Source: Hydra vulgaris
Taxonomy: Eukaryota > Cnidaria > Hydrozoa > Anthoathecata > Hydridae
DNA: 64,000 nucleotides
NCBI RefSeq assembly: GCF_038396675.1
Contig: NC_088931.1
Coordinates: forward strand, 60,235,001-60,299,000
Reading direction: 5' to 3'
Below, piece by piece: positions 33,353 to 62,408 of the stretch. Under the pieces are notes generated by a model, which saw only the letters and a program-made list of their open reading frames with translations, made no database searches and had not been told where the DNA came from. A program made the translations under genes and the position numbers. Within the stretch, counting starts at the first letter, position 1; every line of letters begins with the position of its first letter.

Positions 33353-33661
33353 TTATTCATCAAGATCGCTTTCTGACTCTATTTCATTATCATCATCATC
33401 AGCATCATCATCATCATAGAGTCTTTCGTCAAACGAGGTGTTTTCACACGCTTCACCGCATGCGCATAGATCAGTGCATGTGATTCCGTTTTGTTTACAA
33501 GAACATCGATTTGTGACGCAAACAGGTTTGCAAGAACAGTGAACAAATTCAAGAAGTAAATCGGGTGCAGGTGGAATTGTTGTCCAAACCAAGTTTATCT
33601 GGTCTCCATTTAAAGACCAACCATAGCCATCGGGCGAAGGAACATTTAATATACCTTTCAA
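33353..33661 (-). other. Cysteine-rich CXC C-terminal domain of the family gene
   Basis: C-S-C-x3-C-x4-C-S-C-x5-C-x3-C-x-C is followed by GEACENTSFDE and an acidic tail (DDDDADDDDNEIE). The pattern is that of Tesmin/TSO1-like CXC domains, which bind DNA in other proteins. Confidence 0.6.
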
Positions 33662-38282: not shown

Positions 38283-38519
38283 ATCTCCATTTTTATTTTG
38301 AAGTTTGCACCACCTTTTTCGTGTGCTAAATATTTTTTTTTATAGCTTTAGTACTGCATTATTACAAGCATACACGCGTTATCTCCAGGCATTGTAGACT
38401 AACGCTGGCAAATTTGCTACCACTGGAAAATTTAAAAAACGAAAATAACGAAAAACCTTCAACGTTGCATTTCAAGTCACTAATTATTCATTATTTACTT
38501 TTAAATTAAAAGTAATTTA

Positions 38520-38640
38520 TAGTGTTGTTATCGACTTCGACTAAATCGGCTAAAAGTTGAAACTAGTCGACTTTAAAAAATCGAATAGTCAATTTAAACG
38601 ACTATGGACTCCTATTATTCAATTAAAAGTCTATTTAGTC
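38520..38640. mobile_element. Possible solo hAT terminus
   Basis: The sequence starts TAGTGTTGTTATCGACTTCG and continues with repeated CGACTA/TAGTCGA motifs in both orientations to about 38640. A TAGTG start and clustered short inverted motifs resemble a hAT end. No partner end or target duplication was found. Confidence 0.3.
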
Positions 38641-39012
38641 GAGTAAAAATCTTAAAATTTTTTATCTTTTTATTCAATTTAACTTGTCAATCTTTAATTT
38701 TTGTTTGCTTATTTAATAAAAATAGTATACACTATTATAACTATTACCTAACTTTTTGTTTACTCTCAGGGGTAGTGTTCGGCACAAATTCAAATAGTTT
38801 GATCAAATATGCGTCAAATGTTTGAAATGGCCAAATTCAAATCTTCCTATTTTGAATTTAGATCAAATTCAAATCTTTCCAAGATTTGATGTATATTTGA
38901 ACGTTATTTAACTTATTTCATTTATTAATTTTAGTTATCTGAATCTATAAATTTTATTCATATTGCAGCATTTGTTACTATTTCTCACACATTACAGCTT
39001 CTTTTATTCTTT

Positions 39013-40812
39013 TTAATCCAACCAAGACTTCAAGCACTGGCAAGCTTGAATGGTATCTGCAGAGAGAAGATTTCTTTTTTCAGTAATAAGATTTTTTCCT
39101 AATGAGAAGAGCCTTTCTGATGATACAGATGTAGCAGGAATGGCCAGGTAATCTCTGGCCATTCTGGATAGGTTTGGATATTTGTCAGATCGAGATTTCC
39201 ACCAAAGTAATATGTTGCTATTATTGCCGCCATCTATCTTACTTGTATCATTACAATAGTTTTCAAACTCATTACATGGAATGGATGAAACACGCGATTT
39301 GAACGGGGTATATTTTGAAACGTTTTGAATGCTTGTAGCAGTTGTACCATTGCTTGGGGCATAATTGATTTGATATTCACAATTGACTGTGTCCATAATC
39401 TTTGTATACGACTCGCTGTTTGCGCCCTTATCATTTTTGTAATATTCAATACCAAATCTTGGGTCCAGGACAGTGCAGATAGTAAAGCAGTCACTAGTCA
39501 AATTATAATATTTTGAAATTTTTGCGAGCGCTGCAACTGTAGAGCGGTGTAGATTATCTTCAGGGTTGGTTTTTGTGGTCATCCATTCAGTAATGTGATC
39601 CAAAAGAATATTGAAGAGAGGAACCACCAAAGACAATGTGGAATATGAATCACCACTAATGAGCTGGGTAAATTCCTTGAATGGTTCAAGATACAAAACA
39701 ATTGTTTCAAACCTGTTCCAAACATCTGCTGAAATTGATAGACAACAGTCTGGATTGTTTGCAGTTGAGTCAAAATCTCAAAAATACGCAATGAAACCAA
39801 CTTTTAATTCCATTGCTCGTTTAAGCATATCAGCTGTTGAGTTCCATCTTGTAGGGACATCAAGTATTGGTTTTAAGGTGCAATTTGATTGCTGGAAACC
39901 TTTGAACCTAGAATATGATTGAGGACTGGATCGGATTTTTTTAATTCCTGTTCTAAGTTTTACAAGATCATCTTTCAAAACATCCAAACCTGCTTGCGCG
40001 CCCAAATTCAGCACATGAGCAAAACACCGGATATGCTCAAAGGTGGTTTTAATTTCGTACTTGGAATTTAAAATATCCATAAATGAATTATTATTGGAAG
40101 CATTATCTAAGGTAATGCCCATTCCTTTGCTTGTAAGACCGAATTCAATCAAAACTGACAAGAATGCATTAGATAAATTTGAACCTGAATGGGAATCAGG
40201 CAAGGATTTGAAATCAAGAGTTTTGGCATGTAGGTTCCAGTCTTTGTCAATGTAATGAGCCGTTATGCCCATAAAAGCAATGTTGTTGGGTGATGTCCAG
40301 CAGTCAGTGGTGAATGAAACCTTTGAGTCAAGATTCAAAAAAAGGGTCTTTAGCAATTGTTTTTTGGTGTTGTAAGTGTCCATTATCTGGCGTTTTAATT
40401 GGCGCGCACTCATGATTGACAAATTTGGTTTCAGTAGAGTGAGTAGTTTACGAAAGTGGCTGGACTCTACCTCATTAAATGATTGATCATTCTTGACAAT
40501 CCAGCTAACTAAGTATTCATTGAATAGATCTGGAGAATAAACGATTGGTGTCATTATCATGTCATCTAAACGTTGTTGCTTTGGTTCTCTGTCCCCAAGT
40601 AATTTGCTTTTGTGTTGAGAATTTAAATGGTTCATTAGATTTGTTGTCCCACCTTTATTGTAAGCATACTTGTTCTTGTGCTTTGGACAATGCTGGCATA
40701 TGGCCTTGGTTTTTTCATGCTCATCAACTGTGAAATGATCCCATACAATTGATTGTGAACGTTTGGTGGTTTTTGTAACAGAAAAAGATTCGGGTTCTGG
40801 ATTATCCGACAT
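39013..40812 (-). pseudogene. hAT transposase with BED finger, one internal stop
   Basis: One frame runs from ATG (40812) to the stop at 39013, 599 residues, interrupted only by a TGA at 39778-39780 (FIAYF-stop-DFDSTANN). BED finger: VWDHFTVDEHEKTKAICQHC...HLNSQH. Catalytic blocks: TTDCWTSPNN, ITLDNASNN, RCFAHVLNLG and TRWNSTADM. C-terminal dimerisation block: IPATSVSSERLFSLGKNLI. One stop in 600 codons and an exact target duplication point to recent activity. It would be functional only with readthrough or if the stop is a sequencing error. Confidence 0.93.
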
Positions 40813-41219
40813 AATTAGGAATGTAATATATATTTCTGAAATAGATACATTTCAAGGTTGTTTACAAATAGTAAATATACTAATATTAAGTAAACACCTA
40901 ATGAAAATGATTAAAATAATAATGGTTTAAATAATAAAAATAATATTAATAATAATGATAACAATAATAATAATTATATATAAGTCACTTGTCTTTATAA
41001 ATACAATAGCTACATAAACAAAGTTAGACAGTTACAAACAGTTAAAACTGATAAAACGTAAAAGTAAACAATGACATATAGCAACTATTATAATGAAAAA
41101 TAATTAATGAAAATAAGAATAACGAATATTAAAATAAATTTGAATTTGAATACACGACGGAAAATACAAACAATAGACAAACATACAAAAACGCACAGAA
41201 AATTAATAAAATTAAAAAA

Positions 41220-41520
41220 AAAAATTCTTTGCTTTCAAGCAAGCCATTATTATATATTTTTTTTATTTTCTTTTTTTGAATGATTGTTTCTTTCAATGAA
41301 TGTTTTTCGATTCGTTATTGTTTTACTTTTTCCATTTTTATTGTGGTTAAATTGTATTTGCAATTTTTTCTTTTGATTTTTACATATATTTTTTTCTACG
41401 TTTTTTCTTTTAATCTTGTACTTTGTTTACATTTCTTTTTTTTTTTTCTTTCTCTATGCTCTTTACTTTCTCTTTAATATTAACAAACTTTAATTAAAAA
41501 CTCTTTTTTTTTTTTTTTTT
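41220..41520. other. Pyrimidine-rich end region of the hAT
   Basis: A T-rich stretch with (T)n runs upstream of the transposase start. No gene. Confidence 0.5.
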
Positions 41521-42009
41521 TTTACGTTATTGAAAGGCGACCGCCATTCCGGAAACCACTGCAAAGACCCCGGAATAAAGTGATATATATGTTTGCGGGC
41601 CTGTAAAATTTGGCGTTTTTTTTTCAAACGCAAAAATTGAGAACAAAGTGAATATTTGAAAATCAAATCCAAATCCTCCAGATATTTGTCAAATCAAATT
41701 CAAATCTATCCCCTCAAAGAACAGTTCAAATTCAAATCTTTAAAGGTTTGACGTATATTTGATTTTGCCGAACACTACTCAGGGGCAAAACTAAAACGTG
41801 GCACTCAAAATTCTAAATGGCATCTATAAAATGAAGTTATAAATATGACTGTAATGACTTTTTGATATATAGCCACTGCGTCACGAAATGACTTTTAATT
41901 CGAACCAGTGGCGTAACTAGGGGGAGCACAGCCCCGCAAGGCGGTAAGGCCCCGGAGCTTAGAGGGCCCCGCGAAGATTTTTCACGTATTCTTAAATGAA
42001 AAACAGATA

Positions 42010-42230
42010 ATTTTTCAACAATGGGAACTCTATCATAGAATTTAATTTCAATAGAAATTCTATAATAGATTTAGTTTCAATAAACGTTTTATCGGAAAAT
42101 TAATTTTCAATAGAAATTCTATTTCAGAATTTAACTTCAATAGCAAATCCATTATAGAATTTCGATTGAATGTAACATTCTATTGTAAATTTCTATTGAA
42201 TGTAAACATTAGCGAATAGTTACGTTGTCT
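42010..42230. repeat. Subterminal inverted motif cluster in the hAT
   Basis: AATAGAAATTCTAT-like palindromic motifs recur about eight times in both orientations. Confidence 0.75.
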
Positions 42231-42856
42231 ATTATAGAAATACCGCTGATAAAATTTAGTACTTTAGTATTTGTCGATAAAGTCATGTGATGATTTTAAA
42301 GTGGAAAATTAAGTATAAATTATTAAATATAATTATATTTAGTAGGTAAGTGCTTTTCTATTTATATACATTCATGCAAAGCAGTAAAAAAGTTATATAA
42401 CTATAATTTTCATTACAATAAGTTGAGTTATCAAAATGTTTAGCTTATAGGTAATAAATTAGCTATATTTTTAATATTGGTAATATTTTTTAACTGCTTG
42501 TTAAAAAAATCTTGCAATTTTATTCTAGCGATTTAAAATATCCTATATAAATTAATTACTGAGATCTTGATTTTTTAAATAAAAAATGTATATAAAAGCG
42601 ATACATGTAGAACTATGTTTTTGTGTTGAGTACGCACTAGGTTTTGCTATAGTACGAGGATAGTACGAATTAACAAAGAAACACAAATTATGTGTACATA
42701 TTTAATATAAAATTGAAAGAGCGGACTCAAGATACGAACTAAAGAATAAATACAAATTAAGTTTATTATTTATTCAAAAATATTTAGCCACATATATTTA
42801 TATCTATAGGGTTAATACATATAATTGTTCTAATAAAACATTTTTCTTTCAATAGC

Positions 42857-45414
42857 ATGGACTCAAAAAGAACTTATATGAGTGGAACCAGAAAAAGGAA
42901 ATTAAAAAAGGAGGCTGATGATAGATTACGTAAAAACAATAAAAAGATATCCTTATTTTTTTCATTAGTAGAACAGAAACCTAGTGAAGAAGTTGCAGAT
43001 AAAAATATCAATGTCGTTACTAGTACTTCTCAAGCAACCCAACAAGAAGAAATGTTATCTGTTTCAATTAACTTAGAACACAAGGAAATTTCGAAAGATC
43101 ATAATGAATCTCGTTATAAAAGTAAAGCATATATTTTCGCAAATCCTAATAATCTTACCACTGCAATGCAAGTTGAAGAAACAGATCCAGAACCGGATAT
43201 ATTTCAGGAATTAAATACATTAGCAACAGTATGGGATACTTTAAAGGAAAATTTCTTGATGATAGCACAAAAAGATTTATTATTTCCTCTGAAAGATGCA
43301 AACCACAAGGACCATTTAAAAAAGATCCTTCACAAAATTTTAGACATTTTTCCACAAATTATTATTATTGTGCATATAAGTTTGGTCGAACACAGCGATT
43401 TTGGCTCTCTTATTCCAAAATTCTGGACTCAGCATATTGTGAACCATGTTGGTTATTTTCAAATGATAAAAATAACCAATGGCGTACGGGAGTTCGAAAC
43501 TGGAAAGGGCTAAGTAAAAAAATAAAAAGTCATGCTAATAGCCTAAAACATATTGAAGCATGTCAAGTATACGATCATTGGAAACAAAACAGGACACTTA
43601 ATGAGGATACAGAGACAATAATTCGTCATAAAGCTTCATTTTGGAAGATGGTATTGGAAAGGTTATTTAACATCACTTTAATGTTAACAAAAAACTCACT
43701 TGCATTTAGAGGTCATAGTGAAGTGTTGGCAGATGAAATTTACAATGGCAATTTTTTGTCTCATGTTTAATTGCTGTCAAAGTACGACGATACAATGAAA
43801 CAAGTACTCAATAAGCCTAAAGGCACGATAAAATATCTTAGTCCAGCTATCCAAAATGAAGTGATTCAATGTTTAAGCCAAAATTTAGAAAAAACATTAT
43901 TATTCGAAATAAATGAATCTGCCTTTTTTTCTATTATAGTTGACACAACTCAAGATGTATCTAGAAAAGAACAATTAAGTTTAATTTTTCGATACGTTCA
44001 CATAGTGCGCAAACAGGACACTCAACCTTGTCAATTAGAGATTAAAGAAACATTTTTGGGTTTTTATGAAATAAAGGATCATTCGGCAGTAGGTTTAACC
44101 AATCAATTGTTATTATTGCTTGAAAATAAAGGAATAGATTTAAAAAAGTGCCGTGGTCAAGGATTTTTATATCGGCATTCATAACGGAGTTCAGAAAAAA
44201 ATAAACAATATTCAGCCATCTGCACAATATGTTCATTGTGCGAGTCACAATTTAAACCTGGTTATAAATGATGCTGTTTCTGGTTGTAGAGAAGTAAAAA
44301 AATTTTTTATAACTTTACAAGAAATTTACTCCTTTTTTGGCAACAGTATTAAAAGATGGGATTTGGTATCAAATTTTAGCGAGGAACCCAACAAGATGGT
44401 CTTCAAAAATTAAACCCAACAAGATGGTCTTCAAAAATTAATTCTTTATTAGCTCTAAAGTTACGCTTTTTAGATATAGTTAAAACTTTAACTGAAATTT
44501 CTGTAAAATATTCGAAAAGAGTAGAACAAACTGAAGCTCTAAAATTAAGGGACAAAATATCAAACTTTGAATTTGTTTTTATTTGCGTCATTATGTATCA
44601 CATATTAACGAATGTAAATTATGCTTCAAAAAACTTACAAAAAAAGTACATAGATCTATACGAAGCGGCCACGTTATTTGGTACACTGAAATTCAAGTTA
44701 AAAGATTTTCGATCAAATTACGATTTATTTAAATTAGAGGCTGTTACTATTTGCAGTAAGTGGAAAACAAAGCCAACATTGAAGGTTAAGAGACAATCCA
44801 AATATGCGAGACATTTTGATGATTTAAGTGGAAGTCATTTAAACGAATGCACTGAAAAAAGATTTCAAATTAATGTATTTTATAGAACCATAGATATTGT
44901 TAACGTGCAAATAAGTGATAGATTTACTGGAATGGAAAAACTTTCAAATCTTTTTAATTTTTTGCAACCTCAAAATTTAATAAAATTGTCTGAAGATGAT
45001 CTAATTAAATCAGCTAAATTATTGCAACATAGTTACCCAGACGATTTGACAAAACATTTTCCAACCCAATTAATTAATGCAATCACTTTTATTAAAAATG
45101 ACATCGCAGAAGCAACTACATTAAAAGATTTAGCTGACATACTGTTCATCAAATACAGTTTTATGGAGTGCGATTTTTCAGATGTAAACACAGCAATATT
45201 GCTATTGATGACAATACCTATGACAGTTGCAAGTGCTGAAAGATCTTTCAGCAAATTAAAGATTATCAAATCATATTTAAGAAATAGCATGTCTCAGAAG
45301 CGTCTCAAACATTGTGCAATTTTGGCAATAGAGAACGAAAAAGGACAAACATTAGAATTAGATAAAGTAATTGCGGAATTTGCGAATAAGAAGGCAAGAA
45401 AAGTTTATATTTAA
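42857..45414 (+). pseudogene. hAT transposase, MYM/TTF-type, inactivated
   Basis: It starts MDSKRTYMSGTRKRKLKKEA. A zinc-finger region follows (RFWLSYSKILDSAYCEPCWL). Catalytic and core blocks are IIVDTTQDVSRKEQLSLIFR, VHCASHNLNLVINDAV and NPTRWSSK. It ends with the dimerisation domain TVASAERSFSKLKIIKSYLR and stop 45412-45414. Lesions: frameshift near 43200, TAA at 43768-43770, frameshift near 44155 where GYDGAS-like residues are expected, and a 28-bp tandem duplication at about 44388-44443 that shifts the frame just before the TRW block. It is non-functional. Confidence 0.9.
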
Positions 45415-46439
45415 AGTTGTTCAATAAATTCAAAGTTTCTTAGAGTATTCTTCAATTTTTTTTTCTATTCTTGATAGCATTCTAAGAATTACTGTCTTAA
45501 GATAGTATAGTTATTATGAAAATAAAAATTCTCCCATAGGCATAAGTGAGGTAAAGTTAGTTTTTGCTATTAAGGATGTTCGTTCTTTTTTATAATTATT
45601 TTGTGAAAAGATTCTAGATTATTTCTCAAATTTATAAAATAAATATTTTTTATATTCTTAATCGTATTATATTAACTCAATATAAAAAGCAAATATTGGG
45701 TATTTCATTTGTAAATATATTTTGAAAAAATTTAAAGTGGGAGGGCCCTCTTTTCTTTTTTGGCGAGGGAGGGGGGGGGGGAATTTATAGTTACGCCACT
45801 GATTCGAACCTCTTTTCCCAAGAAAAACCTTTGGGAGTATGGTAGTACAAGTATGCAGGAGTAAATTAGAGTTGGTTTTAAAATCTTTTAGTATCATCCG
45901 TGAAAGAAAAATTGATTATTTATAGAATGAATATGTTAGAACAAGTTTCAAATGGTTTCAATAGAAAATTTGAATTTTCGATCTCGTTGCTCTTAACAAA
46001 TGAGTTACATTGTTCTGTTGAAAAAATTTGAAAATTGTTCTAATATATTTATTCTATAGATAAGCAGTGTACTAACAACTTAGAAACAACAACAAACAAA
46101 AAAGCATTCAATTTCTTCAGAAAATTAAAAAAAATCAGATTCAAGCTTAACAGATCAAGCAACTTAAAAAAAAGGATTACTCTTATTAAATGTTCTTAAA
46201 AATTGATGTTGAAAGATAGTTTCTTACATATCATATATTATAATACAGTATTTTCTACAAAGAAGTTAAAAGGAATGTTTGCTGTTTTAATAAATCAAGC
46301 AGTTCAGAAAATTCTTAGGGTGGTCCAGATGATTGAACCGTTGCCAGTGATGGTTGAAGTCATGATAGAGTTATTATGTTGCTAGCTCTTAATAGATGCC
46401 CAGTAAACAGTTGTGGCAATCTATAAACAGTGTCATATG

Positions 46440-48253
46440 AAAAAAGACAGCACGCGCTTTGGAAGTGATATTCGTGTTTGGAAGCTTGATGTAGGAATCC
46501 TAGAGTTCTTCAATGATTATGCGATAGTTGTCTTGAGGAACATTAACAATGGAGGCATGAACAACTGTATCAAACTTTCTGAATGTGTCAATGAATGGAA
46601 ATTCTAAAAAACAAGCATGTTTTTCCGCAAGTTCTTGAAGCCAGTCAACATTTCGCAAAAGTTTTCTGCACTCATTGCCTGCAAATTGCCCTCTGTGAAA
46701 AGGTTGTTGTTGAAAGTTCATTATTTTTGGCCGTTCTGGTGTATTTTTCCACAACACCATCAAGCAAGTGATGCTCTCTGGGTGGAATGAAGTCCAAGAT
46801 AAGTGTTCCTTCAGGTAACTTAATAACTGACTTATGCACAACATTCTGAAAGTCCCTGGCTTTTTTTATTTAAGCACTTGCTGCTTGGAAGCCTGTATAA
46901 TCAGTTTAAATGGAGCCAAATGTTTGGAGCTTACCACTCTGATGAAGATTCTTTGACTCAATGTCACATGGTTCATGGGTAAACACTTGAGTGAGACTGC
47001 AAACCACAAATAATGTTTGCAAGCTTCATTTCACATGACAACACAAAAAGCAATCTCTCAAGGCTCACTTAGTCCATGATCTGATTTACATTGTCATAAT
47101 TTTTAGAATGGTTTTCTGCAAAAGCCACCAGAAGTTGATGCTTCACTCTGGAGTCCTTGAACAGAAGTCAGGAAGCCTTATAGACACTTTCAGGAACCAC
47201 CATCCTCCATCAATAATTACTTTGATGTGTTCATTTGACTAAGGACCTCTGATCTGAACAAAAGTGTTTCCTAGAGCTTCAACATCTTTGCAGTACACCA
47301 ATTGATGTTTGAATTATTCTCTAATAGACATTTAGATGTGTATGAAATTTGAGGTGACAAACAATTCAGAAAAACGCTTTCCAAGAGACTCAAATTTCCA
47401 AGAAACTCAAAATCCCTGATGTTTTTTTCAACTACTCGCTGGGGAGCTACTTTGTTAAGTGTTTGAAAGCCCTGTCTGGTTTTGAACTTGTAGAAGGTGT
47501 TGAGCAGTCAAGGTAGATGTAGCAGCTGAAAAAAGTTCTCTTTGTCTTTATGGCCCTGGAAAAAAAGTTTACATCAACATAAACAGTTTCTCATATTATA
47601 AGGTTTTTATGTTGTAATAAAACAGTCACTAAAACAAAAGCATACTAAGCATATATGGCAAAAATATTTTTTACCTGGAGTAACTGGAAGATACCTTTCT
47701 ATTCCTTGAGCAAAACGCACAGTACCAGGGGGTGAAGGATCCTTGTTAGCTATAACAAAAGGAGCTACTCTTTTTGCTGCTTTTAAGATTTTGCTGCAAC
47801 TTCAAGCAAGCTCTTTCAAAACATTCCTTTTGTACAACTATGTGGAATCCATTTTCCAATCAGTGAAAAGCATGCTGAACACTGTTTTTCAACAGTTGGC
47901 TGTTCTTTCAACTGACTGGTTGTGTTTGTTGTTCCAATTGGCTGAGGGTTTTGAAACTTGGCTTTTTCTACGCAAATCACATGGTGATTCTCTTGTTGCA
48001 GGACATATCTTCATGTTTTGGTCGTCAAGCAGTCAGGGAAGTTAAACATCTTGGTCATTGTCTCTTTTTCTAAAGCCTACTTGACAGTTTTTGCAGATAC
48101 GAATTGAGACTCTTTGATCTTCAAAGTTGATACCTTGAACAAAAATCTCTTGACAGCGTTTAATCATAAAGTTAGTTGCCTGTTAGCTTTTTTCAAACAG
48201 AGAAAACAGACAGTTTTTCTGTTATCATCATGAGTTTTTGCTTGATTCGGCAT
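46440..48253 (-). pseudogene. Unclassified transposon protein with CxxC N-terminus, decayed
   Basis: The likely start is ATG at 48253: MPNQAKTHDDNRKTVCFLCL, with a later RICKNCQVGFRKRD (paired CxxC, probably zinc binding). The C-terminal part reads PFHRGQFAGNECRKLLRNVD, then FPFIDTFRKFDTVVHASI. I recognise a GNECRKLL-type block from multicopy invertebrate elements but cannot name the family. Many stops and frameshifts are present. It lies inside the long-inverted-repeat element. Confidence 0.5.
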
Positions 48254-48620
48254 TTTCAATAGTTTTGCACTTGTATTTTGTTCAAAAGGCACAATAAAAC
48301 TGTTTGCAGGTCTTTCCCGAAATTTTAAAATGAATAAAGGATCTAGAAACTTTTACTTAAACAAGTTGCTTATCTTTGTTAGTAACCTATGTGACAAAAA
48401 TATACAACTTTTATGTAAAAAATATTTTATTTCATTTGATTAATAATTTTTTCAATCAGCCTAAAAATCAAAATATCCAAATCAATTTTGTCTTTCACGG
48501 ATGATGATGAAAGATTTTAAAACCAATACTATTATACACATACATACTTGTACTATCATACCCCTGAAGATTTTTCGCGAGAAAAGAAGTTCGATTTAAA
48601 AGTCATTTAGTGGCACAGTC

Positions 48621-49009
48621 ATAGCAAGTGTTAAAGACGGTCTCTAAATTATTGGGGTCTGGAAACAGATTTTCCCGTTGTCAAAAGAGCCCTTCTCTAA
48701 TATTGTTTTGCTTCATTATTATTTAAATAATATTATGTTTATTTAAATAATATTATGTCAATATTATATAAAGTGAAATTAATGAGTTTGAAAAAGAATA
48801 AAAATTTAAAGGTTTAAAAAGAAATTAAAAAAGAAATTAAACAAAAAAAAAATTTAAAAAGTTGAAAAAAATTATTAAAAATAACAAATAAAAAATTACA
48901 AATCAGTACATATTCGTATACATATTCAATACAATATTAAAGTTAAATAAAATACATTAAAAATAAAAAATTCAAAATTATTTTAATTTTTTAAAAAAAA
49001 GAGAGAATG
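48621..49009. other. AT-rich non-coding interval
   Basis: Poly-A and AAT-rich sequence. Nothing recognised. Confidence 0.6.
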
Positions 49010-49664
49010 TACGTAATGTTTAAATTTAGTAACTGTTTTTTTTATAGTTCTTTTAAATGTATCAATAGATTTTATTTTTTTCATATTTTTGTCAAGAACC
49101 GAATTCCACAAGCGCGGTCCCCGGCATATTGTCGAGAAGTTAGATTTTTTGAGTGATGTTAGTGGGATGTAGTTAGTGTGATGTTAGTGGGATGTAGTTA
49201 GTGTGATGTTAGTGGTATGTATAAATATCATTAATATAAATTAAAAACTCCAAGTATTGATCATTGGGATACTCCGCAACTTATTGATTCAAATGGGGAA
49301 CATGTTAAGTCATATGGTACTCCTTGTTTACGATTTTTTAAATAACATTGCAGCCACTTTAAGTTGGAGTGAACTACTCCATAATTGCGTAGTTTATAAA
49401 TAAGAATCTTGTGGTTGACAATATCAAATGCTTTTGATAGATCTAGAAAAATTTCGAGTGTGTAACTGTTGTTATCAAAACCATTTAAAATTTGGTTGGC
49501 AAGATCAATTACTGCATGTTCAGTGGAATGGTTATTGAGAAAACCAAACTGTTTATGATAAAGAATATCATTTTTTTCAAGATAATTGTACAGTCTGTTG
49601 TGCATAATACGCTCTAGTATTTTGGAAAAACAGGAAAGTATGGAAATTGGTCTGTAGTCTAGAA
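49010..49664 (-). pseudogene. LINE reverse transcriptase with internal deletion
   Basis: From the right: YRPISILSCFSKILERIMHN, NDILYHKQFGFLNNHSTEHA, EIFLDLSKAFDIVNHKIL and CGVSQ-stop-SILG, which is the polymerase core up to motif B. A short out-of-frame YINDIYT follows, and the YADD region is missing. After the 25-bp repeat at 49153-49218, the C-terminal tail resumes as FSTICRGPRLWNSVLDKNMK, KIKSIDTFKRTIKK. The element is dead. Confidence 0.8.
49153..49218. repeat. 25-bp tandem repeat at the LINE deletion point
   Basis: GTGATGTTAGTGGGATGTAG plus TTAGT is repeated 2.6 times, exactly between the two retained LINE parts. Confidence 0.88.
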
Positions 49665-50029
49665 AATATCAGATAGTACACTTCATAACAGAATTCATAG
49701 TACACTTAATGACAAAATTAAAAAATTTGAATTGAATGTGTCAGAAACCATCACATTTATAAGCTTAGTATCAAACCATATGATCTACCAGTACATACCA
49801 TATGATCCATATATACCACATACCATATAATCTATTAGCAATAAATGATCCATTATTAATAAATGCTCAGAATAAATGATCCAGTAATAAATGAGACATG
49901 AACTATTATTAAACCATCATTAGATAACTTATTAATTGAAGCATTCTTAACATAATTACTTAACAACGAATAATAAATTCTAAAAATATAACTTCCCCTA
50001 TCCATTTTTTTTCCACAGCATCTTATATC

Positions 50030-50480
50030 ACTGCAACCGTTTCAAAAAGGCCATTTAGTTTCATTGCAGCTACTAATTACTGATGTTTTAAATGTTATAT
50101 CTCCAATACCTACAATTATTCAAAAAAGAATAAATCCAAGAAAAAAGAAAGCTCAAAGAATTAAAACTTTCACCTCATTTCCTTATGTTAAGCAATTCAT
50201 TGTTGAGCATGGGAACTTTCTAAACTCACTTAATCAAAAAAGCAATAAACCATAAACATGGATTGAAATTAAAAATGCTACTTGTTTGTCTGAAAGTTCT
50301 GAAAACAAAATGCAAATAAAATAGAATGTATAAAATAAGAATGTATAATATGCAGAGAGAACTTTGATGAAGACTGGATTCAAAGCTTTACATGTAAAGA
50401 TTCGCATTGTGTAAAGTTAGTTCCAAACTCTGATTTTTATGACTGTGACGTTTTTATGGTGTTGGCATGTTGTTTTTTTT
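50030..50480 (+). pseudogene. Possible pogo-like transposase C-terminal fragment
   Basis: LKPFQKGHLVS...ITDVLNVISPIPTI and a basic RINPRKKKAQRIK are followed, after a stop and frame changes, by a C-x2-C...FDEDWIQ...CK pattern and FYDCDVFMV. This resembles the zinc-finger tail (EEDWIQC, FYFCD-C) found at the C-terminus of some pogo/DDE_1 transposases. No catalytic part is present. Confidence 0.3.
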
Positions 50481-52199
50481 AGTGGTTTTAAATTTACTGA
50501 TGGATATTTTGACTAGAAAATTATAAAAAATATGTTTCAATGACGTGGCAATTTTTAAAAAATAAGTATCAAAAACTTAAAAAAACGCCTAAACTAAATG
50601 GTCCTATAATTTTAGACGCGCTTGCTGACATTAACTCTGAATATGAAAAAGTCATATAAACCTCAAAAAACAGTCACTTAATTTTTTTTATGATATTATT
50701 CCTGCTTCTGATTATTATAACTAGAATGTTCGTGGTAAAATACAAGTTAAATAATGTATTAAGTTTGTGCCTAATAATATAAAAACTTAAATCCTGTTTA
50801 AGTTATTTCTCCCTCCAAATTTTTAAGATGTCTGTTTTCTAATATTTTTTTTTATGTTTCGTAAATTAATATAGTGCACTATAATTATATTTTTGCTTTT
50901 CAATAAATAAGTGCTTCTATTTTTGTAAAAGTCTTTTTTACACTTTGTCTTTTGTGACCGTTTGAGCAATAAACTAGTTATTCCTTAAGTGTCCGGGGCT
51001 ACCCGACATATTCTTAATGTAACTTTAGTGGTAACACTATGAAATAACACAATGACGTAGCACTATGGAACAAATTACTATGGAATAAATAATTTTAGTT
51101 TCTTTGCCTCTAAAGAATGCTCACGAAGTACTAAAAATAGGAAAAATAAAATTAGGCAATTTCCAATATATGCAATAAAATGAACCATACGTGCCAAACT
51201 AAAACCACCACCACCACCAAACACCAGAAATCTTATTATATTATTTATATTAATATAGAAAAATGGGATTCATTATGTTATTTTTATCTTTCTATTGGAT
51301 GATGAGCTGTAATCCAAATATTCTCACAACCAAACGCAAAACTCAAATGAGAAATTTAATAATTTGGAGTAAGTGACTTAAAAATCTTTTTGTTGATCAT
51401 AAAAATTTAAAATTGGAGTTGATTCTGCAATCCACCAAAACAATGAGTGTTTTACAGAAGGTTTAAAACCTTTTCAGCGTTTGCGATGATATATGTTTTT
51501 AATGTGATTCAGTTTATGAAGATAAAAATTTATTTATATTTCGCAAAAAATTTCAGATGGTGGTAAAAAGCGACAAAAGAAAATCAGAAAGATAATGAAA
51601 GGATTTATAGAAAAACCAAAATAGATGTAAAAGATCATTATCTTCATTGTGGATATTAAACTTTAAATAACGTGTTTTTCTCCAATCCGTGTTGTTTTGT
51701 CTTTTGCTTCAACTTTAAACAATGTACTTTTTTAAAGTTATGCTACAGTTTTGGTGTTTTTACTGTTCAGTTAACATATACTTGTGTCATTTACCAAAAC
51801 CAAGATAGTTAATATATTCCTAGAAACTACGACTCCAAAACTCAAAAGCACCCCTTTTTCTAATGACCTGAAAATTTATTAAAAACTATTTTAATGATTT
51901 TTATAAATATTAATAATCTATTAGTAATTAGTAGTTGAACCAAATCTGAATGTGTTTTTTTTTGAAGCTGTTCACATGTTGTTTAGTTAAGAAGTATGAT
52001 TAATTGTATTTAATTTAAGTAAATAATTTTTGATAAAAAATTTTGTTTTAGCTTGTTAAAGCTAAAGAACTAAAAAAATAAAATGTAAAAAGTTTATTAA
52101 AATAATTTTTATTTTTTTCTATTACGAATATTTAAAATATTATCAGCCACCATCTGATAATATGTAGTATTCGTTTTCTAATTTTTTTTTTTTTTTTTG

Positions 52200-52265
52200 T
52201 AGTTATTAAGGTCCTCCAAGAAGATCTAACGGTCATCACAGATCACCGCGAAAAAGCATTTAACC
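52200..52265 (-). mobile_element. Decayed 3' fragment of the tRNA-derived SINE
   Basis: The sequence around CATCACAGATCACCGCGAAA and GCATTTAAC matches the reverse complement of the SINE body at about 3350-3415 (CACAGAGCACCGCGGGAGAG, GCATTTAAC). Only this body part is visible. Confidence 0.5.
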
Positions 52266-53709
52266 AGGATTAGAGAAAGGTTGCATAAGATGAGCAGGTT
52301 CTTTAGATGGCATAACCTCATATACAGGAAAATTACTAATTTTTTTTTGCGTTTTTTAAAGTTGTTCTCCACGGAGCTTTATTTTTATTTTGGTATTTCA
52401 ATAGCGAAAGTTTTTTCAAAAAATCACAAACTTTTTTAGAGATAGGAAAGATTTATTATTATTATTTTTTTTTTTATATTGTTGAGATAATTACACTTTA
52501 CTTTTGTATAATTCTTAAAGATGGTTTCCCAAGATGTTTTTTTTTTCTTTGTATCTAAATTTGTTTGTTGTGGTCCGATGACATTAAGTTGCATAATTTG
52601 CATTGAATTTGGGACAAAATTTATTTTTTATTAGAAATAAAAAACAATTTATTATACAAAAACTTGTAATCAAAAAATCAACTTTTGAATAATTTAATAC
52701 TCAATTAGCTTTAAAAAAGACAACAAGAAGAAACTATTTAAAAAATTATTAAAAAAGAAATAAATATTAGCGAGGGCAAGTTAACATCATTAAAACCTGC
52801 ATCTTAGAGTCTTATTACTCAATTTTTTTTTTTATTCGTAGTATTTTTTTTGAACTGAAAAAATTCATTTTTAAATTTAGTTTCAAGTTAGATCATAATT
52901 CTTTTGATGTTTGTAACTAAATAATGAAATCATTTGCTAGTTTTGCTTCTCATAAAATGTTTAGCATTTAATCATTTTGTCAATTCAGTGATTAATTTTA
53001 CATGGTTACTTCGTATATGTATCTCATGGTTACTTATTACAACGAATAATCCGAATGAAATTCTTAAATTAAAAATTAAATTTTTTTTTTTTTTTTTAGT
53101 TTTCAAAACGATATTCATTTTGTTTAGCAATTTCTTTAAAGTTGGCAAGGACTTGTTTCACGTGCAGGTTGCTTTTTGTTTTTGTTTTCTTTTCAAGTAC
53201 TAAATAAAGATATATATATATTCAGTTTCGCGAGTTTTTTCAGATGAGTGTATCTATAAAAAATTTGATGTTTATTAACGTTTAAGTTTTTATAAAAATA
53301 TTATGCTTCCTAAAGTTTAAGTTTTTATGAAAATAGTTTTGGCAAGTAAAACTGTTACAGTTTGTTGCAAGTAAAACTGTTACAAAAACGAATTTAATTT
53401 TTTTTAAGAAAGAAGAAATAACGAATTACCTCAAATAAGCCATCAAACACTTTTATTGGTTAAATCAATCAAAGTAAGCAATGAAATACTTTTATTGATT
53501 AACTATAAAAGTATTGGTATTTAATATAAAAAAACTTTCGCTTATTTATGTATTCGCAGGAAAAAGTTCAATAAAATTTATACAAACTTTTGAAACATAT
53601 GGTTTCTAGAAAATTTATTTATAGAAAGTCTATTAACTTCTATAGAAGTTCCTCATAATAAGAGCAATCTATATTTTTTTGACTTTTTCTTTTATATTTT
53701 AAAAAAGCA

Positions 53710-53780
53710 TTTTAAAAAGCTATTTTTATTTATTTTTATTTTTATTCATTTTTATTTTTATTTTTATTTTTATTTTTATA
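53710..53780. repeat. (TTTTTA)n/(TTTA)n simple repeat
   Basis: TTTTTA units with TTTA and CA interruptions. Confidence 0.88.
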
Positions 53781-55399
53781 GAACTTAATAAAGTTGCTAT
53801 AAAAATTTTACTCGAATTTTTATAGAGCATGTGTTTCGAAAGTTTATAAAAATTCAAAAACATTTTTTCCTGGGTTATTTATGAATTTGAAATACGTTGT
53901 TAAAAGTTAATTTGTTACAAAATTCTCTTCAAACAATCTCTGACACTATCTCTTCGAGTAAATTTTCATATAACCAGTAGTGAAAGCAGAGTTAAAATAA
54001 TAAAGACAATTAAAAAATAATATTTGTTAATATACTAATGAAAAATAGATAATTGTTGGTTTACTGAAAAGAGAAAGCGACTAAAAATTTGCGAATAAAA
54101 AAAATCAATTTTAAAATCTTAAAAATAATTGGAAAATTAAAGAAATGATTGAACAAAGCATAAATGAAATATTAGAGTATAATTCCTGAACTTGATTCTT
54201 TTGGGTCCAATGCAAATTGGACTCAAAAATGTATTTTATGAAAATGTCAACTATGTTTAAAATCTGGCGCGGAAAAATCCAAGTTTAACTCATGGTAGTT
54301 TAGTTAAGCAGCTCATCTAAACGCTGACTGGTATTAATGCATGCAATAGTACACTTAAAATACCACTTTTATAAGTGCTGTTTTTATTACAGATTATATT
54401 GAGATAAATTGGGTAAAAAAGATTTCATTAGACTACAGCAAACTAATCAAAGGTTACATTCATTGAAAAATTATTTATTGATGTGTTTAATAGGCAAATA
54501 TATATTATTGTTAAATAGCAGAGCTACAAAAAGTATTTTACAAAGGTTTGTATACCAAGAACCCTAAAATGTGTATTATCACTAGAAATTTATCACTACC
54601 TCGCGACGGTACTTGCCTTTTTTTAAGCAATTCATTATCAAAGCATTTGTGGAAACAGCAAGTTTCACAAGATAAATCTAGAAGTTCTACAAACAGGTAG
54701 TAATTGATAGCATGCTGAAATCAGTTTCTTACAATCTCACAAAAGAAAATTAAAATGCAAAAGCTTTCGTCAAATCCAATGTCATACTAAGATGCGTATA
54801 AAAGTATTATGAAATTTTCAATATTTTTTTTAATTTTTTAATTTTTTATAGAAATTTTTATTGCCCATCGCTACATGAGAGTTTTATTTCTTTTGTTGCT
54901 AATTATTATCTATGAATATTTAATCTTTGGTGTTTCCATTTTCAGTTGTTGAGGGTCTAGGATTTTAAGTCTGTTTACTTTTGAATTATTTTTTCTTGAA
55001 AATGTAATGAATTTAAAAACATAAAGATATTGTAAAAAACATTGATAATTCGAATAAAAATTTGACAGCATGCCATAAAAGTGTCAACAAAAGTAAAATG
55101 TTATCAACACTTGATGAATGCTAGAATGCTCAAAAAAATTTGCAAATGTAATAAAATACCGCAATGATTGTGCTCAAGGTATATTTACAAATGTTTTTAT
55201 ATTACAAAAACAAATGGAATCTGGTTGGGAACTGAAGGTAAACAATTTTATGAAATGCAGTTTAAATTAAAAAAAGAAGGGGGGTATGCAGAAACAGAAA
55301 CAGCCAGTGATACTAATGACTGGTTATCCGTGAAACGTTAAAATTAAAAATCAGCGCTGTGAAATTCGCTCATCTTTAATGATGAAAAAGCATTAACAA

Positions 55400-55990
55400 T
55401 ATTTAATAGAATAACTTAGGTATTGGACTAATATCAACTTCAGAAAGCATTAGTTATAATCTGTGATACCACAAGTGTCAGCATTATCAAAAAAAAAATG
55501 AAGTTGTTGTAATAATCCAAACGGAATTTATATAAAAATTTCTAAACACAATATATAGGATGTTAACATCATGTATTGGATTTAGTCTTGAAGCATTAAA
55601 ATGATAAAATCATAATGGAAAGTAACATCAACCAGTATATCTTATAATTTTGTACAATAAGTTAGAGGCAGTTATGCAAATCTTTAAAATGACTTTTCAA
55701 CAAAGTAGTGAAAAAATAAAATTTAACAACATCAGATGATATGCAGTTTTTATATGAATTAGGAAAGACATACCAATACTCTAGATCAATCAAGAAATAG
55801 GTGCATTTCCCTTTATAATTTTTAAAACATTAACGAATATAAGCAATCCAAAAATTAAACTCTAGAGAAATATATATTTTACTTGCTTTTGTGCTGCTCC
55901 CAGATCGAAGTGAACTGCTTGCTGAAATTTATGGAATTTGGCTTGATATTTTATTCATTGACCATTTTTATAAAGAAGACAATTATAAAA
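55400..55990 (+). pseudogene. Decayed second copy of the 27.8-32.2 kb DDE-type family
   Basis: Across several frames it reads KALVIICDTTSVSIIKK, then HHVLDLVLKH, DDMQFLYELGKTYQYS, IYILLAFVLLPDRSELLAEI and YGIWLDILF. These align in order with IICDTTAVNTG, CQHHILDLLL, DDFKFLYELCEAFSYF and YVLLAYFLIPTWRCELESA of the minus-strand gene. Numerous stops and indels show it is much older. Its limits may extend left to about 54150. Confidence 0.6.
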
Positions 55991-56818
55991 ATTGAAATAT
56001 AGCTTAAAAAACACAAACAATTTATAAGAAACATTAGAATAAAGAAAATACAAGTTTCAACACAAAGAAGTAACATGCTAAACAGGCAATTAAAACCATA
56101 CAATAATAAAGTTTAAAACAGCTGAAAAAATAAATTTGTAGTTTATTTTATGAAAAAAGTGGATTTATTGTATTATAATATTCAAATACTATGTATAATT
56201 TGTGTTTTTTATTTTCATATAGCCCTAAGAATAAATTTCTTAAATGTTTACTAAGTCGCCATATTTCCAGAACAGTTTTTTAAGGTCCTGGGGATACTTT
56301 TGAAATAAAATCATTAAAGAATATCTATTTCAGTGTTTTTATATCAAAACTCATCTTGGAGGACCATGAACTTATGAGGTTAAAAAATGTCCATTTAACC
56401 TCTAAGGATGGTTTAAGTATGGTTTACAAAATATTAACCACACATGTCACACAGTTTAATGACTTCAAGATGATTTTGTTAAAAATTTGGTTGTTTATCT
56501 CAATCAAAGTAATGATTACTAAATTTAAATTAAAGTTGCTTTTTTTCCTAAATGCTCCAAAACATTCTAAAGTAATTCTAAATGTGATTACATTAAGTTT
56601 CGACACTCTGCCTGCTTTTAGTAGCTACATTTAAATATCTGCATTTTAAAATGTATTTAATTGATCGAATATTATCTATGTAAACTTTTTTAAGTACTTT
56701 TTAAGCAAATGTTATTACAATCTTTACAAATAAAATTAATATAAGATTTGTTTAGTAATTTCAAGCATTTAAACACTTAAAAACAAAAATTAAAAACTTA
56801 TATTTAATAAAAATTAAA

Positions 56819-57078
<260 letters not shown>

Positions 57079-57178
57079 TATAAATTATGTTAGTGTATTC
57101 TACAAATACAGTGCTCAATGTTCTAAAAGAACAGAGCAAAAATAAATTAGTATAACACTTATCTAATTAATAATAAAT

Positions 57179-57240
57179 TAAAAACACTTATCTAATTTTT
57201 GATTACTTCGAAGTAATCAAAAATTAGATAAGTGTTTTTA
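57179..57240. repeat. Perfect 62-bp palindrome, no loop
   Basis: 31-bp arms meet at TTCGAA (57207-57212). The arm reads TAAAAACACTTATCTAATTT... inward. A further direct copy of ACACTTATCTAATT lies just left, at about 57156, and a TA array starts just to the right. Confidence 0.95.
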
Positions 57241-57243
57241 CTA

Positions 57244-57245
<2 letters not shown>

Positions 57246-57342
<97 letters not shown>

Positions 57343-57350
57343 TATATATA
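57246..57350. repeat. (TA)n array
   Basis: About 100 bp of TA, beginning 6 bp after the palindrome. Confidence 0.95.
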
Positions 57351-58060
57351 TACAAGTATTAATGTATAAAGATGCAGTTATTAATTGTTACAAGTGTTTA
57401 CAATTATTAAATATAAAAAAGTGAGGGGTAACATTTTAATTAACTTTGTTATATGAATTGTGATAGTGAGAAAAATAAATTTCTTTTTTTTATTTATCTA
57501 AATTTTTTATTTGAGCTTTATTTTATTTAAAAGAAACATTTTTAATCTAGAGTTGTATCATCCATAAGTATTACATAGAGTTGTATCATCCATAAGTAAT
57601 GTAAACCGTTTAGATTTGTTTTTATATTGGTCTTATCTTTTTGTTAACAATATCTAATAACATTTACCATAAATAATATTTACCATACAATACTTAATTG
57701 AGTATTACTTCAATTTCAAATTATACTCTAAAACAAGAAAGTTGTTCTCTGAAAATCTTGTGTAGTATTTACCTAATTATTGGAGTATTTGTGGAGTATT
57801 TTACTACTATAGGATCCAAAAGTTGTGTATGATTGGTAATTGCTCAAGCGATGTTTCAGTATGACAATTAATTATGAATAAAAGCAAAATTTTCATTCAG
57901 TTTTATTTCTTTAAAGCTTACATATGTTTCACTTTTAACAATACTTTTAGTTTATAATAAGATTTGATTTTTTGCTTTGACTGTTTGATTAATTTGGTTG
58001 TTTCAGCTTTATTTAATTTATGGAACAAGTTCAGCATTTATTTAAGGTTTTCTATTTACA

Positions 58061-58574
58061 AATTAATGGTAATAACTTTTGGAGGAGTATTAAGAGTATT
58101 AATTAATGGTAATAACTTTTGGAGGAGTATTAAGAGTATTAATTAATGGTAATAACTTTTGGAGGAGTATTAAGAGTCTTAATTAATGGTAATAACTTTT
58201 GGAGGAGTATTAGGAGTCTTAATTAATGGTAATAACTTTTGGAGGAGTATTAAGAGTCTTAATTAAAGGTAATAACTTTTGGAGGAGTATTAAGAGTCTT
58301 AATTAATGGTAATAACTTTTGGAGGAGTATTAAGAGTCTTAATTAAAGGTAATAACTTTTGGAGGAGTATTAAGAGTCTTAGTTAATGGTAATAACTTTT
58401 GGAGGAGTATTAAGAGTCTTAATTAATGGTAATAACTTTTGGAGGAGTATTAAGAGTCTTAATTAATGGTAATAACTTTTGGAGAGTATTAAGAGTCTTA
58501 ATTAATATTAATAACTTTTGGAGGAGTATTAAGAGTCTTAAATAAAGGTAATAACTTTTGGAGGAGTATTAAGA
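58061..58574. repeat. 40-bp minisatellite, about 13 units
   Basis: The unit starts AATTAATGGTAATAACTTTT and continues GGAGGAGTATTAAGAGTCTT. The period is 40 bp with very few substitutions. A GG deletion shortens one late unit. Because 40 is not a multiple of three, the open frame through it is not a protein. Confidence 0.95.
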
Positions 58575-59850
58575 TGATTGATTAGGTTATTTTTTGAAAA
58601 ATAGTTGTAAAAAGTTGTAACAAATAAATAAAAAAGTTGTTGCTGTAATTTGCAAACTGCATTTTCATTTATTACATTAGGAAAACATAATTTTTCTTTG
58701 AAGTTATACCCATTTAATGTTTTTCAAACTAAAACCTTCATTATAAAGTTTATCATACTAAGAAGTTTTAATGTTTATTTAACAAGAGAGTAAAAACAAT
58801 TTGAATAAAACTCCTGGTTACAAATATTTGGCACAAAATAAGCGCAAGCAGTAGTAATATAAAGAAAAGTTTAATGTAAAATTTAAACAGAGTAGTAAGC
58901 AATATATTTATTTTTTACTTTCGAGGCTAAAAGAACTAAATGACTTTCTGGTCATTGCGACCTACTGTATCAACTTTTCTCCATATATATTTACACATAC
59001 AAGATCTACAAGATTTTTATCAACTTTTCTTAAACAAGAGCGGATTCTTTTTTGCTAATAACGTTAATTTTCAGCTTCCCAATTGATTTCAAACACGCAG
59101 CCATTAAAAATTGAACAGAAATCTCAATAGGTCGGAGTTCTGAAAGAAAAATCGGATTATCAACTTTTATAACATAATAAATATTTTTTTATCCAGGTAT
59201 TTTAATTGATTTGAAATCGTAGATCTTCTGGCATAGTGCAAGGAGGTCTGAGCAAAATGCGCAATTATTATTACTGTGATATTTGTAAATTAACGATTCC
59301 ACGAGGGAATAAATTGTTTTACACCACAAAATTTTTTTTAAGTTTGCTTTTGCGTTAATATTTTACATTTTGAAGCCTCCTTGCAATTGGTTTTTATTTA
59401 GATGTTTAAATGTAAAGTATAACTTACAAACAATAATAAATTCACGATTTTTTACTTTGTAACAAATTCTCCAAAATTTTTTTCAATGTAGGAACAACCA
59501 CATTTGAATTTCTTTCCAATTTTTTTATTGTTAAAGTTACAGATTGGTTATTCGAGAGACCTTTTAGACGGCTAATGTCTATAGCAGTCATAATTTTTGG
59601 GTTTTATATGAACCAGGCTTGCAAGATTGGTTTATTGTTCTTCCACTAACTTTCGATGGTTCATTCACGGTGATAAGAGGCAACAAAATACTCTACAACG
59701 TTTGTATTTTAGTGTTAGGATGCAAACAGTTGTACACAGTGCGGTAGTGGGTTGGAGCCCCGCTTCCAAAAAAACTTGTTATTAGGGCTCAAATTACAAA
59801 AAAATTAAATAAAAAAACCTTCTTAAATTTGCAAATAAACTCCATAAATT

Positions 59851-59898
59851 GGCTAGGCTTGCTCTCCCCCGTATTGGGAGCAAGGGGGAGCCTAGCCA
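59851..59898. repeat. Imperfect GC-rich inverted repeat
   Basis: GGCTAGGCT...CTCCCCC is answered by GGGGGAGCCTAGCC across a short offset loop. It stands out from the AT-rich surroundings. Confidence 0.6.
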
Positions 59899-60534
59899 CG
59901 GCACAGGCTGTACACTTCTTCAATTAGGTAGCTGGCTTCGTTTTTGCGATAACTTTTTAATTAATTATTCTGAACAAAAAAAAAGACCTTTAGATTAATA
60001 CGTTATAAACAAAATATCAAAAAATAGTGAGGCTGGGTACAAAACTGCTATAATTGGTATTAAATTGCTTTAATTTTTCACAAATTCAAAAAGTTTTAAA
60101 TGCTTAAAGATTAGGCCAAATTTTTGTCATCAGGAAACATATTTGAAATAAAAAATTTTTTCAAATATATTTCGTTAAGTTTTTTTTCTTGTTTTTTAAA
60201 GTTTTTTAATTTTTTTAAATGATCGTAAAAAATTGAAAAATTTTCATGTAATTTTTTGAATTTACGTAAAAATTGTTTTGGATACAAAGTTTTCCAATTG
60301 CTCTTATTTTCAAATAGCTTTAATTTTCCAAAATGCTCTTGCATTAATATTGGTTGCATTAGCTTAATAAAAGTTATTAGTAAACTATCAATGGGAAAAT
60401 TTCCATTCTATCATTGAACACAAAATATTTTGAGATATGTTAAAAATATATGAAAAGCCCATTTGCAAAAATATTAACAGAAAAATAAATATTTTGAGTT
60501 AACTTCAATTCAACATTCTGTATACTGAAATATC

Positions 60535-60721
<187 letters not shown>

Positions 60722-61692
60722 TAAATTATAGACTAATTGAAAGTTTTTTGTTTTAAAAAGAGACGAAGAAAATATCAATTTCTGTTAATGCGCGACTAGA
60801 AATAGTGCCGTTTTTCGTCATTTTCTCAAAATCATTTGACTCAGACGTTTTACGTATGCGCTCCTCATATATAGTAAATAATTAAATATTATATAAAAAA
60901 TTAAAAATTACAAAATAAGATTTCGTGATAAAATAATAATGTTCACTGAGACTTATCATCGCAAATCGCTAGTTTTCTATAAAAAAAAATGTTACAAAAA
61001 AAACTAACGAGAAAATAAATTTTTTTAAGAATATATATAGAAACTTGATATGGAGACATTGGGTTTTATACATTTTACCCTAATTTTTGATATTGATTAA
61101 GGGCAAGTAGGGTAATGGAGAAAGCGGGATAACTCTGAACATGGTCAAAACGACATAATAAAAAAAAGATATTTGACAATTTCTTTTTACCTGCTGAGAG
61201 GGGACCCCATACTCAGTTACAGACGTGTAGTTTCCCGTTACTAAAAATACTAAAAGTACTCTTTCAACATGCATAGATGTGGAGTTTGTAGGTTTTCTGT
61301 ATGATGGCACATTCGCATTGAAAAGAGTAATCTTGTACTAAAAATATGTTGTAAACATTTCGTTTACAACTGCTGCCATGAGCAATTCGAAAGCGGCAGA
61401 ATTTTTTTTTTTTAGAATGTTGGGATTTTTCTGCTCATTACAGGGATTTTGTCACAACTCTTAGGAACCTGATTTTCTTAAAAGCCTCTTTTTGTTACTA
61501 AACGTTGGTTTTAAAACTCTGTTATCTTGTTTTATATATCATATAAACAGTATTTAAAAATAGATTTATAAATCTAGCTTAGATAGTTGTCAGTTGTAAC
61601 ATGTGTGTGAGTCAGTTAAAAAAAGTTTGATTTAAAGTATTCGAGTTTGGTTAAATATAGAAATGTCTTAAAATTTAAAAATATTCTTAGAA

Positions 61693-61951
61693 ATGAGTGC
61701 AAAAAAAAGGTTAAGAAGCATGCAGCTCTCTGAACTAAGTCTTCGAGCGGAAAATAAAAACCAGCGATCTAATTCTACAGCAGTGTTTAAACTTGAACAT
61801 TCAACAAATACAAGCAATGATAGCAGCGACTCAACAAATCAAAATACAAATGAAGCAACAGCGGAATCTTATTTTACATATAAAAGTTATGAAGACTATC
61901 CCGATACATCTTATGAAAGTTGGGGGAAAAAGTTTTGTAGAGGTTTTCGAG
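61693..61951 (+). CDS. PKD2: PKD2 gene B, exon 1
   Basis: MSAKKRLRSMQLSELSLRAE, then a low-complexity Ser/Thr/Asn region and TYKSYEDYPDTSYESWGKKF. Donor GTATCA starts at 61952. The cytosolic N-terminus is poorly conserved in the family. Confidence 0.85.
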
Positions 61952-62408
61952 GTATCATTAATATTATTTTTATTTTCATTATTATTTTTATTTTTTTATA
62001 ATTATCATAAGATAACATGATAATAATTTTTAGTATCATTTTATTAGCATTTTTATAAATATTGATCGAAATGATTTAAAATTTCAGGTCTGTGGAAGAC
62101 TAGACAAACTGAAGACGATTGCAGCCAAGAAATGATTGTGAAAACCTCATTGAGAGAACTGACAATTTACTTGTTTTTTGTTTTGATTGTGTCTATTAGT
62201 AAGAATAAATTTTCTTTAGTCATAAATATGTTATAATCTTATAATTATTGTACATCTTAGTTATATAAATAGATATAATATATACTTAATTTATATTATT
62301 AGTGTTACTATTTGTGAAAATTAAATATTGCTCATAAAGTTTGAAATTTTTTAGTTACATTTGGCATGAGCAGTTCCACTATGTACTTCTTCAACCAGTC
62401 ATTAATAG
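61693..62408 (+). CDS. PKD2: Polycystin-2-like channel, gene B, first three exons
   Basis: Exons are 61693-61951, 62088-62198 and 62355-62408, all GT-AG with matching phases. The Ser/Asn-rich N-terminus (86 codons) ends SWGKKFCRGFRG. Then come LWKTRQTEDDCSQEMIVKTS, LRELTIYLFFVLIVSI (membrane segment 1) and TFGMSSSTMYFFNQSLI. Human PKD2 has GLWGTRLMEESS...[35 protein letters not shown] here. The ATG is the first in the frame. It leaves one base of a split codon, and the next exon lies beyond the window. It is on the same strand as gene A, 35 kb downstream. Confidence 0.88.
62088..62198 (+). CDS. PKD2: PKD2 gene B, exon 2 (membrane segment 1)
   Basis: Acceptor TTTCAG ends at 62087 and donor GTAAGA starts at 62199. 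It holds the RGLW-TR motif typical of PKD2 and the hydrophobic stretch LTIYLFFVLIVSI. Confidence 0.92.
62355..62408 (+). CDS. PKD2: PKD2 gene B, exon 3
   Basis: Acceptor TTTTTTAG ends at 62354 and donor GTATTT starts at 62409. It reads TFGMSSSTMYFFNQSLI and ends with a single G of the next codon, the phase that gene A's first visible exon needs. Confidence 0.9.

Follow-up and report, generated by a model that had tools for sequence, protein, structure and literature searches.

The window analyzed here is a 64,000-nucleotide stretch of contig 12 (60,235,001-60,299,000) that contains a large part of one predicted polycystin-2 (PKD2) gene, termed gene A, and the first exons of a second, termed gene B. 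PKD2 is a textbook ciliary channel. Each of the two genes would encode a channel subunit of the customary PKD2 layout, in which an N-terminal part and the S1 helix are followed by the TOP/polycystin domain outside the cell, a channel of six helices whose pore segment reads ILGDF, an EF-hand region, and, at the C-terminus, a coiled coil. The genes are separated by a stretch with transposon remains of hAT and reverse transcriptase type (26596..61692), identified by Pfam on selected open reading frames (ORFs), and a tblastn search with both genes turned up no other PKD2 exon in the window.

Gene A and its third exon

Gene A is encoded on the forward strand by 12 exons in the window, which together specify 700 amino acids from the tail of exon 3 to the stop without an internal stop codon, with inner junctions predicted to be GT-AG. 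Exon 4 (1125..1198) begins the TOP/polycystin domain and ends at human codon 281 in phase 0, the position of human intron c.843. It is followed by exon 5 (4630..4784), exon 6 (7718..7816), exon 7 (11754..11889), exon 8 (13781..13869), exon 9 (14093..14492), where the PKD_channel domain starts, and exon 10 (15255..15436). Exon 11 (15525..15872) carries the pore segment with ILGDF, exon 12 (16026..16143) the EF-hand region, exon 13 (25717..25919) a linker, and exon 14 (26343..26595) the coiled coil and the stop codon (26593-26595). Exons 4 to 14 were all placed by frame check, and those from exon 5 onward also by PDB matches, including 3hrn for exon 14; exon 9 was additionally recovered by Pfam and by a whole-genome search with PF08016. 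An extra exon near 1455, which is open and has a GT behind it, was considered and dropped, as the phase-0 end of exon 4 connects straight to exon 5, in agreement with PKD2.

The identity of the product is defined by both domain and structure searches. Pfam assigns PKD_channel (PF08016, E 1.7e-72) and Polycystin_dom (PF20519, E 3.8e-55), both past their curated cut-offs, and a PDB sequence search matches 5mke (polycystin-2, E 1.2e-194), which was taken as the human protein. Their domains follow one another in the same way (TOP, channel, EF-hand region, coiled coil), and 310 of 653 aligned residues (47.5%) are identical. The EF-hand region matches PDB 2kld (E 5.3e-22), which is a piece of the polycystin-2 C-terminus, and Pfam gives no EF-hand model there; the C-terminus matches PDB 3hrn, a TRPP2 fragment (E 6.8e-14) that we take to be a coiled coil. 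The preliminary description had read gene A as running from the TOP domain to the coiled coil (1125-26595), and the 700-residue frame together with the Pfam and 5mke matches confirms that extent. Viral contigs scanned with a gene A exon yielded 17 pattern matches and no confirmed relative.

That description had also stated that no 5' exons of gene A were in view, which proved wrong. Window bases 1..48, on the forward strand, are the 3' part of gene A exon 3, clipped at the left edge of the window; they encode GMTSSIMFYFTKSLK plus one base, are followed by the donor GTATGG, and are in phase to the exon at 1125. The segment of gene B exon 3 that aligns to them encodes GMSSSTMYFFNQSLI plus one base and is followed by GTATTT, with 35 of 48 nucleotides the same in both. 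When gene B exon 3 was scored against 127,912 six-frame positions, the top match other than itself lay at window position 3 on the forward strand, with a score of 42 against 27 for the next, and a chance match was rejected on this ground. The candidate lies on the correct strand, immediately ahead of exon 4, and adjoins a donor site.

A run of exactly 5,000 N (contig 12, 60,230,001-60,235,000) ends precisely at the start of the window and thus clips gene A exon 3. If the assembly is the one published for Hydra vulgaris AEP and described as gapless (PMC12220107), this run would more probably represent withheld sequence than a true gap. The proposal to look leftward for 5' PKD2 exons was rewarded in part: the exon 3 tail was found at bases 1-48, and a search of the whole genome (911.5 Mb) with the N-terminal part of gene B found no exons 1 and 2 for gene A, with 5,000 N directly to the left of the window. 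This pattern would also suit a reading in which both loci are real and gene A, beginning at exon 3, is a pseudogene truncated at its 5' end. We consider that improbable, since the sequence from exon 3 to the stop is one intact 700-residue frame with canonical splice sites and with the pore and coiled-coil segments in place, and exons 1 and 2 would fit easily in the 5 kb to the left, given that the first three exons of gene B span a mere 716 bases.

Gene B within and beyond the window

Gene B begins 35,098 bases past the stop codon of gene A on the same strand, in agreement with the distance of about 35 kb given earlier. Exon 1 (61693..61951, with the ATG at 61693) encodes the N-terminal part and ends at human codon 199 in phase 1, the position of human intron c.595. 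Exon 2 (62088..62198) contains the start of S1 and ends at human codon 237 in phase 1, at human intron c.709. Exon 3 (62355..62408) ends in phase 1 at approximately human codon 255, where gene A exon 3 also ends, likewise in phase 1. Together the three exons comprise 141 codons plus one base, with GT donors throughout and AG acceptors at exons 2 and 3, all of these being predicted junctions. Their product matches residues 188-251 of polycystin-2 in PDB 5mke (E 1.7e-12). The N-terminus is shorter than that of polycystin-2, with 75 residues ahead of the match compared with 187 in 5mke. The three exons are thus real and form the N-terminal part of a PKD2 gene, as had been proposed from the sequence. 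An AG at 61689-61690, two bases ahead of the ATG, could be the acceptor of an intron in the 5' untranslated region or of a trans-spliced leader.

The TOP-domain exons that were to be sought to the right of position 64000 are present, among exons 4 to 14 of gene B between 60,304,259 and 60,363,976 of contig 12, all on the forward strand. Exon 4 (60,304,259-60,304,332) lies 6,850 bases after exon 3 and supplies the residues LFTGPNPPS. The remaining exons are located at 60,323,514-60,323,668 (exon 5), 60,342,594-60,342,689 (exon 6), 60,354,685-60,354,820 (exon 7), 60,356,402-60,356,490 (exon 8), 60,356,584-60,356,983 (exon 9), 60,359,782-60,359,963 (exon 10), 60,360,142-60,360,495 (exon 11), 60,360,588-60,360,705 (exon 12), 60,363,411-60,363,580 (exon 13), and 60,363,790-60,363,976 (exon 14). 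The complete predicted gene comprises 14 exons over 67 kb of contig 12 and encodes 794 amino acids from ATG to TAA; a 5,000-N run (60,330,001-60,335,000) lies within its intron 5. Pfam assigns PKD_channel (PF08016, E 7.8e-67) and Polycystin_dom (PF20519, E 2.4e-50), both past their curated cut-offs; EF-hand models fall slightly short of theirs, with E 1e-5 and 1e-4. The coiled-coil segment aligns to that of gene A. The exon boundaries of gene B were first chosen with the phases of gene A imposed, and the choice was repeated phase-free for exons 4-13, giving identical boundaries for nine of the ten; the start of exon 7 shifts 5 bases later (score 107 versus 105), which puts it out of frame with exon 6.

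These exons bear directly on whether one gene or two is present. In the reading of a single gene, misassembly or rearrangement has put the 5' exons on the wrong side, and the junction from gene B exon 3 to gene A exon 4 is indeed in phase: as had been pointed out, gene B exon 3 leaves one base and the gene A exon at 1125 opens with two. The proposed splice (NQSLI-D-LFTGP) stands as far as its phase is concerned. It merely mirrors a shared intron phase, because A and B have the exon 3-4 intron in common, and gene B has its own exon 4, with NQSLI-G-LFTGP as the natural junction. The window is without any N, so that there is no gap between the two genes. Gene A's own exon 3 at bases 1-48 by itself rules out one gene whose parts lie in the wrong order, and gene B's possession of its own exons 4-14 refutes the misplacement of 5' exons as well; we give this reading next to no credence. 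Separate complete gene models had been named as the observation that would tell against misassembly. Such a model is available for gene B and, from exon 3 on, for gene A, whose exons 1 and 2 were not found.

Mobile-element remains are found both between and within these genes. To the right of 26600, the window contains 132 ORFs of 55 amino acids or more, of which 10 were chosen for Pfam; six of these have a match at E 0.001 or better, one of the six being under its cut-off. They include hAT-type transposase ORFs, with a BED finger and a hAT dimerisation region, along with a fragment of a reverse transcriptase, at 39016-40851 (reverse strand), 43177-45411 (forward), and 49264-49668 (reverse). 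Intron 6 of gene A contains transposase-like ORFs (8128-9236), one with the helix-turn-helix domain DUF4817 and its neighbour (8748-9236) without a Pfam match, and intron 12 contains a transposase-like pair (24353-25271) with a Tc3-type helix-turn-helix (under its cut-off) and DDE_3 (past its cut-off). A repeat of about 240 bases in intron 3 of gene B (63079-63319) is 65.6% identical (E 1.7e-9), in opposite orientation, to a segment of gene A intron 4 (3991-4200). In the same intron of gene B, an ORF at 63322-63561 resembles by eye part of a LINE endonuclease, and the LINE-like ORFs of this intron have no Pfam match.

Shared introns and divergence of the two genes

The intron phases after exons 3-13 are alike in A and B at all 11 positions (1, 0, 2, 2, 0, 2, 0, 2, 2, 0, 2). 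Human PKD2 intron positions were taken from Table 1 of PMC11355194 and compared by way of the PDB alignments of A and B. Of the 14 human introns, 10 have a counterpart in the two models combined, nine exactly and one within one codon. Introns 1 and 2 of gene B fall exactly on human c.595 and c.709 (PMC11355194). Among the 11 introns of gene A, seven fall exactly on human c.843, c.1094, c.1319, c.1716, c.1898, c.2358, and c.2522, one lies one codon off c.2240, and three, including the exon 3-4 intron common to A and B, are absent from human PKD2 as tabulated in PMC11355194. Conversely, the human introns c.1548, c.2019, c.2118, and c.2670 listed in that table are without a counterpart in A or B.

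The agreement of all 11 phases is also what would be expected of uncollapsed haplotypes, in which A and B are alleles of one gene that the assembler put in tandem. The two are too different for alleles, as their proteins are identical at only 426 of 664 aligned residues (64%) and their exon 3 segments at 35 of 48 nucleotides. Intron lengths are also very unlike, at 1,076 bases in A and 6,850 in B for intron 3, and 9,573 and 2,705, respectively, for intron 12. The published assembly of Hydra vulgaris AEP is described in PMC12220107 as haplotype-resolved and gapless, which, if it is the same assembly, argues further against an allelic origin. An allelic pair is thus a highly implausible account of the locus, and the similarity of A and B is better read as that of two paralogues. 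Identity between them rises to 73% over exons 9-12, and both contain the ILGDF segment.

PKD2L1 is a near-equal match to gene A (PDB 6du8 and 5z1w; E 1.4e-186 for 6du8), with 53% identity to A and 52% to B over exons 9-12. In a seven-row tree, described below, PKD2L1 groups with PKD2 and not with any single one of the five copies. In light of this grouping, both genes look like co-orthologues of PKD2 and PKD2L1 taken together and not like one of each.

The same-strand array on contig 12

The genome searched contains 911,502,276 bases in 15 contigs. A PF08016 profile search gave 79 exon-level matches, 15 of which lie on contig 12 at 60.17-60.56 Mb, all on the forward strand. These 15 can be read as five gene sites, all on the forward strand, at 60.178, 60.249 (A), 60.357 (B), 60.453, and 60.555 Mb, which places A second and B third among five predicted PKD2-type genes within about 0.4 Mb. 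Partial models were obtained for the other three, each on the forward strand of contig 12. The first gene (P1) extends from exon 7 at 60,150,304 to the coiled coil at 60,197,289, the fourth (P4) has an exon-2 copy at 60,426,814 plus channel exons, and the fifth (P5) has an exon-2 copy at 60,526,335 and a region from the channel to the coiled coil. The genome-wide search with the N-terminal part of gene B returned nine matches at E up to 10: three are gene B itself, two suit the fourth and fifth genes, and four are weak (E 0.7 to 4.3) and lie on other contigs, so that none in this range could be attributed to gene A or the first gene. Another run of exactly 5,000 N is present on contig 12 at 60,162,501-60,167,500. 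Further groups of PKD_channel matches occur on contig 8 (63.18-66.47 Mb, 31 matches in 3.3 Mb), contig 5 (16.8-28.3 Mb, 18 matches), and contig 13 (1.69-2.34 Mb, 6 matches).

Over exons 9-12, P4 and P5 are 80% identical to each other, and the five copies share 51-56% of their residues with PKD2 and PKD2L1. In an earlier nine-row tree with two long-branched distant relatives, the five copies were not recovered as a group and one of six inner branches was starred. The seven-row tree is the same tree rebuilt minus these two relatives; it covers one region only and has no outgroup beyond the split between the five copies and PKD2/PKD2L1, and in both trees the P4 and P5 rows are short of some exon-end residues. 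In the rebuilt tree, the five copies are split from human PKD2 plus PKD2L1 with support of 100/100, and A pairs with B (98/96) and P1 with P4 (95/94). The copies are therefore adjacent, on the same strand, and nearer to one another than to PKD2 or PKD2L1 in this tree, as is characteristic of a tandem array.

A and B are almost certainly distinct neighbouring polycystin-2 paralogues, the second and third copies in the array, which arose by intron-retaining duplication in the lineage of this animal, most likely Hydra vulgaris strain AEP. The reading of tandem paralogues with conserved introns, one of the two originally offered, is thus supported by gene A's own exon 3, gene B's own exons 4-14, and three more same-strand copies. 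Its basis lies in the sequence, namely the gene order, the predicted exon structure, the intact frames (complete for B, from exon 3 for A), the shared introns, and the way the five copies group. Unequal exchange may be the mechanism of duplication. The array is an ordinary, well-resolved case of tandemly duplicated genes from a known family of channels, and the number of five copies is a modest surprise. Among the matches listed in a search of open-access titles and abstract openings, the five-copy array is undescribed; subscription literature lay outside the scope of this search, and we do not claim that the array is unpublished.

For this locus, the flag of an assembly error is removed and a resolved gene model takes its place. 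Membership in the polycystin family suggests that A and B would have cation-channel activity, and the copies may have divided their labour among themselves. A sensory role for A and B in cells that bear cilia is a plausible conjecture at most. The five-gene expansion could possibly, though this is a tentative view, provide several distinct channel subunits, perhaps for ciliated sensory or stinging cells of different kinds. Given the larger groups of polycystin-channel matches on other contigs, polycystins could be one of the expanded sensory receptor families of this genome. The closely linked PKD2 paralogues of this animal, probably a model polyp, raise the question of which of them pairs with polycystin-1-like partners, and in which cell type.
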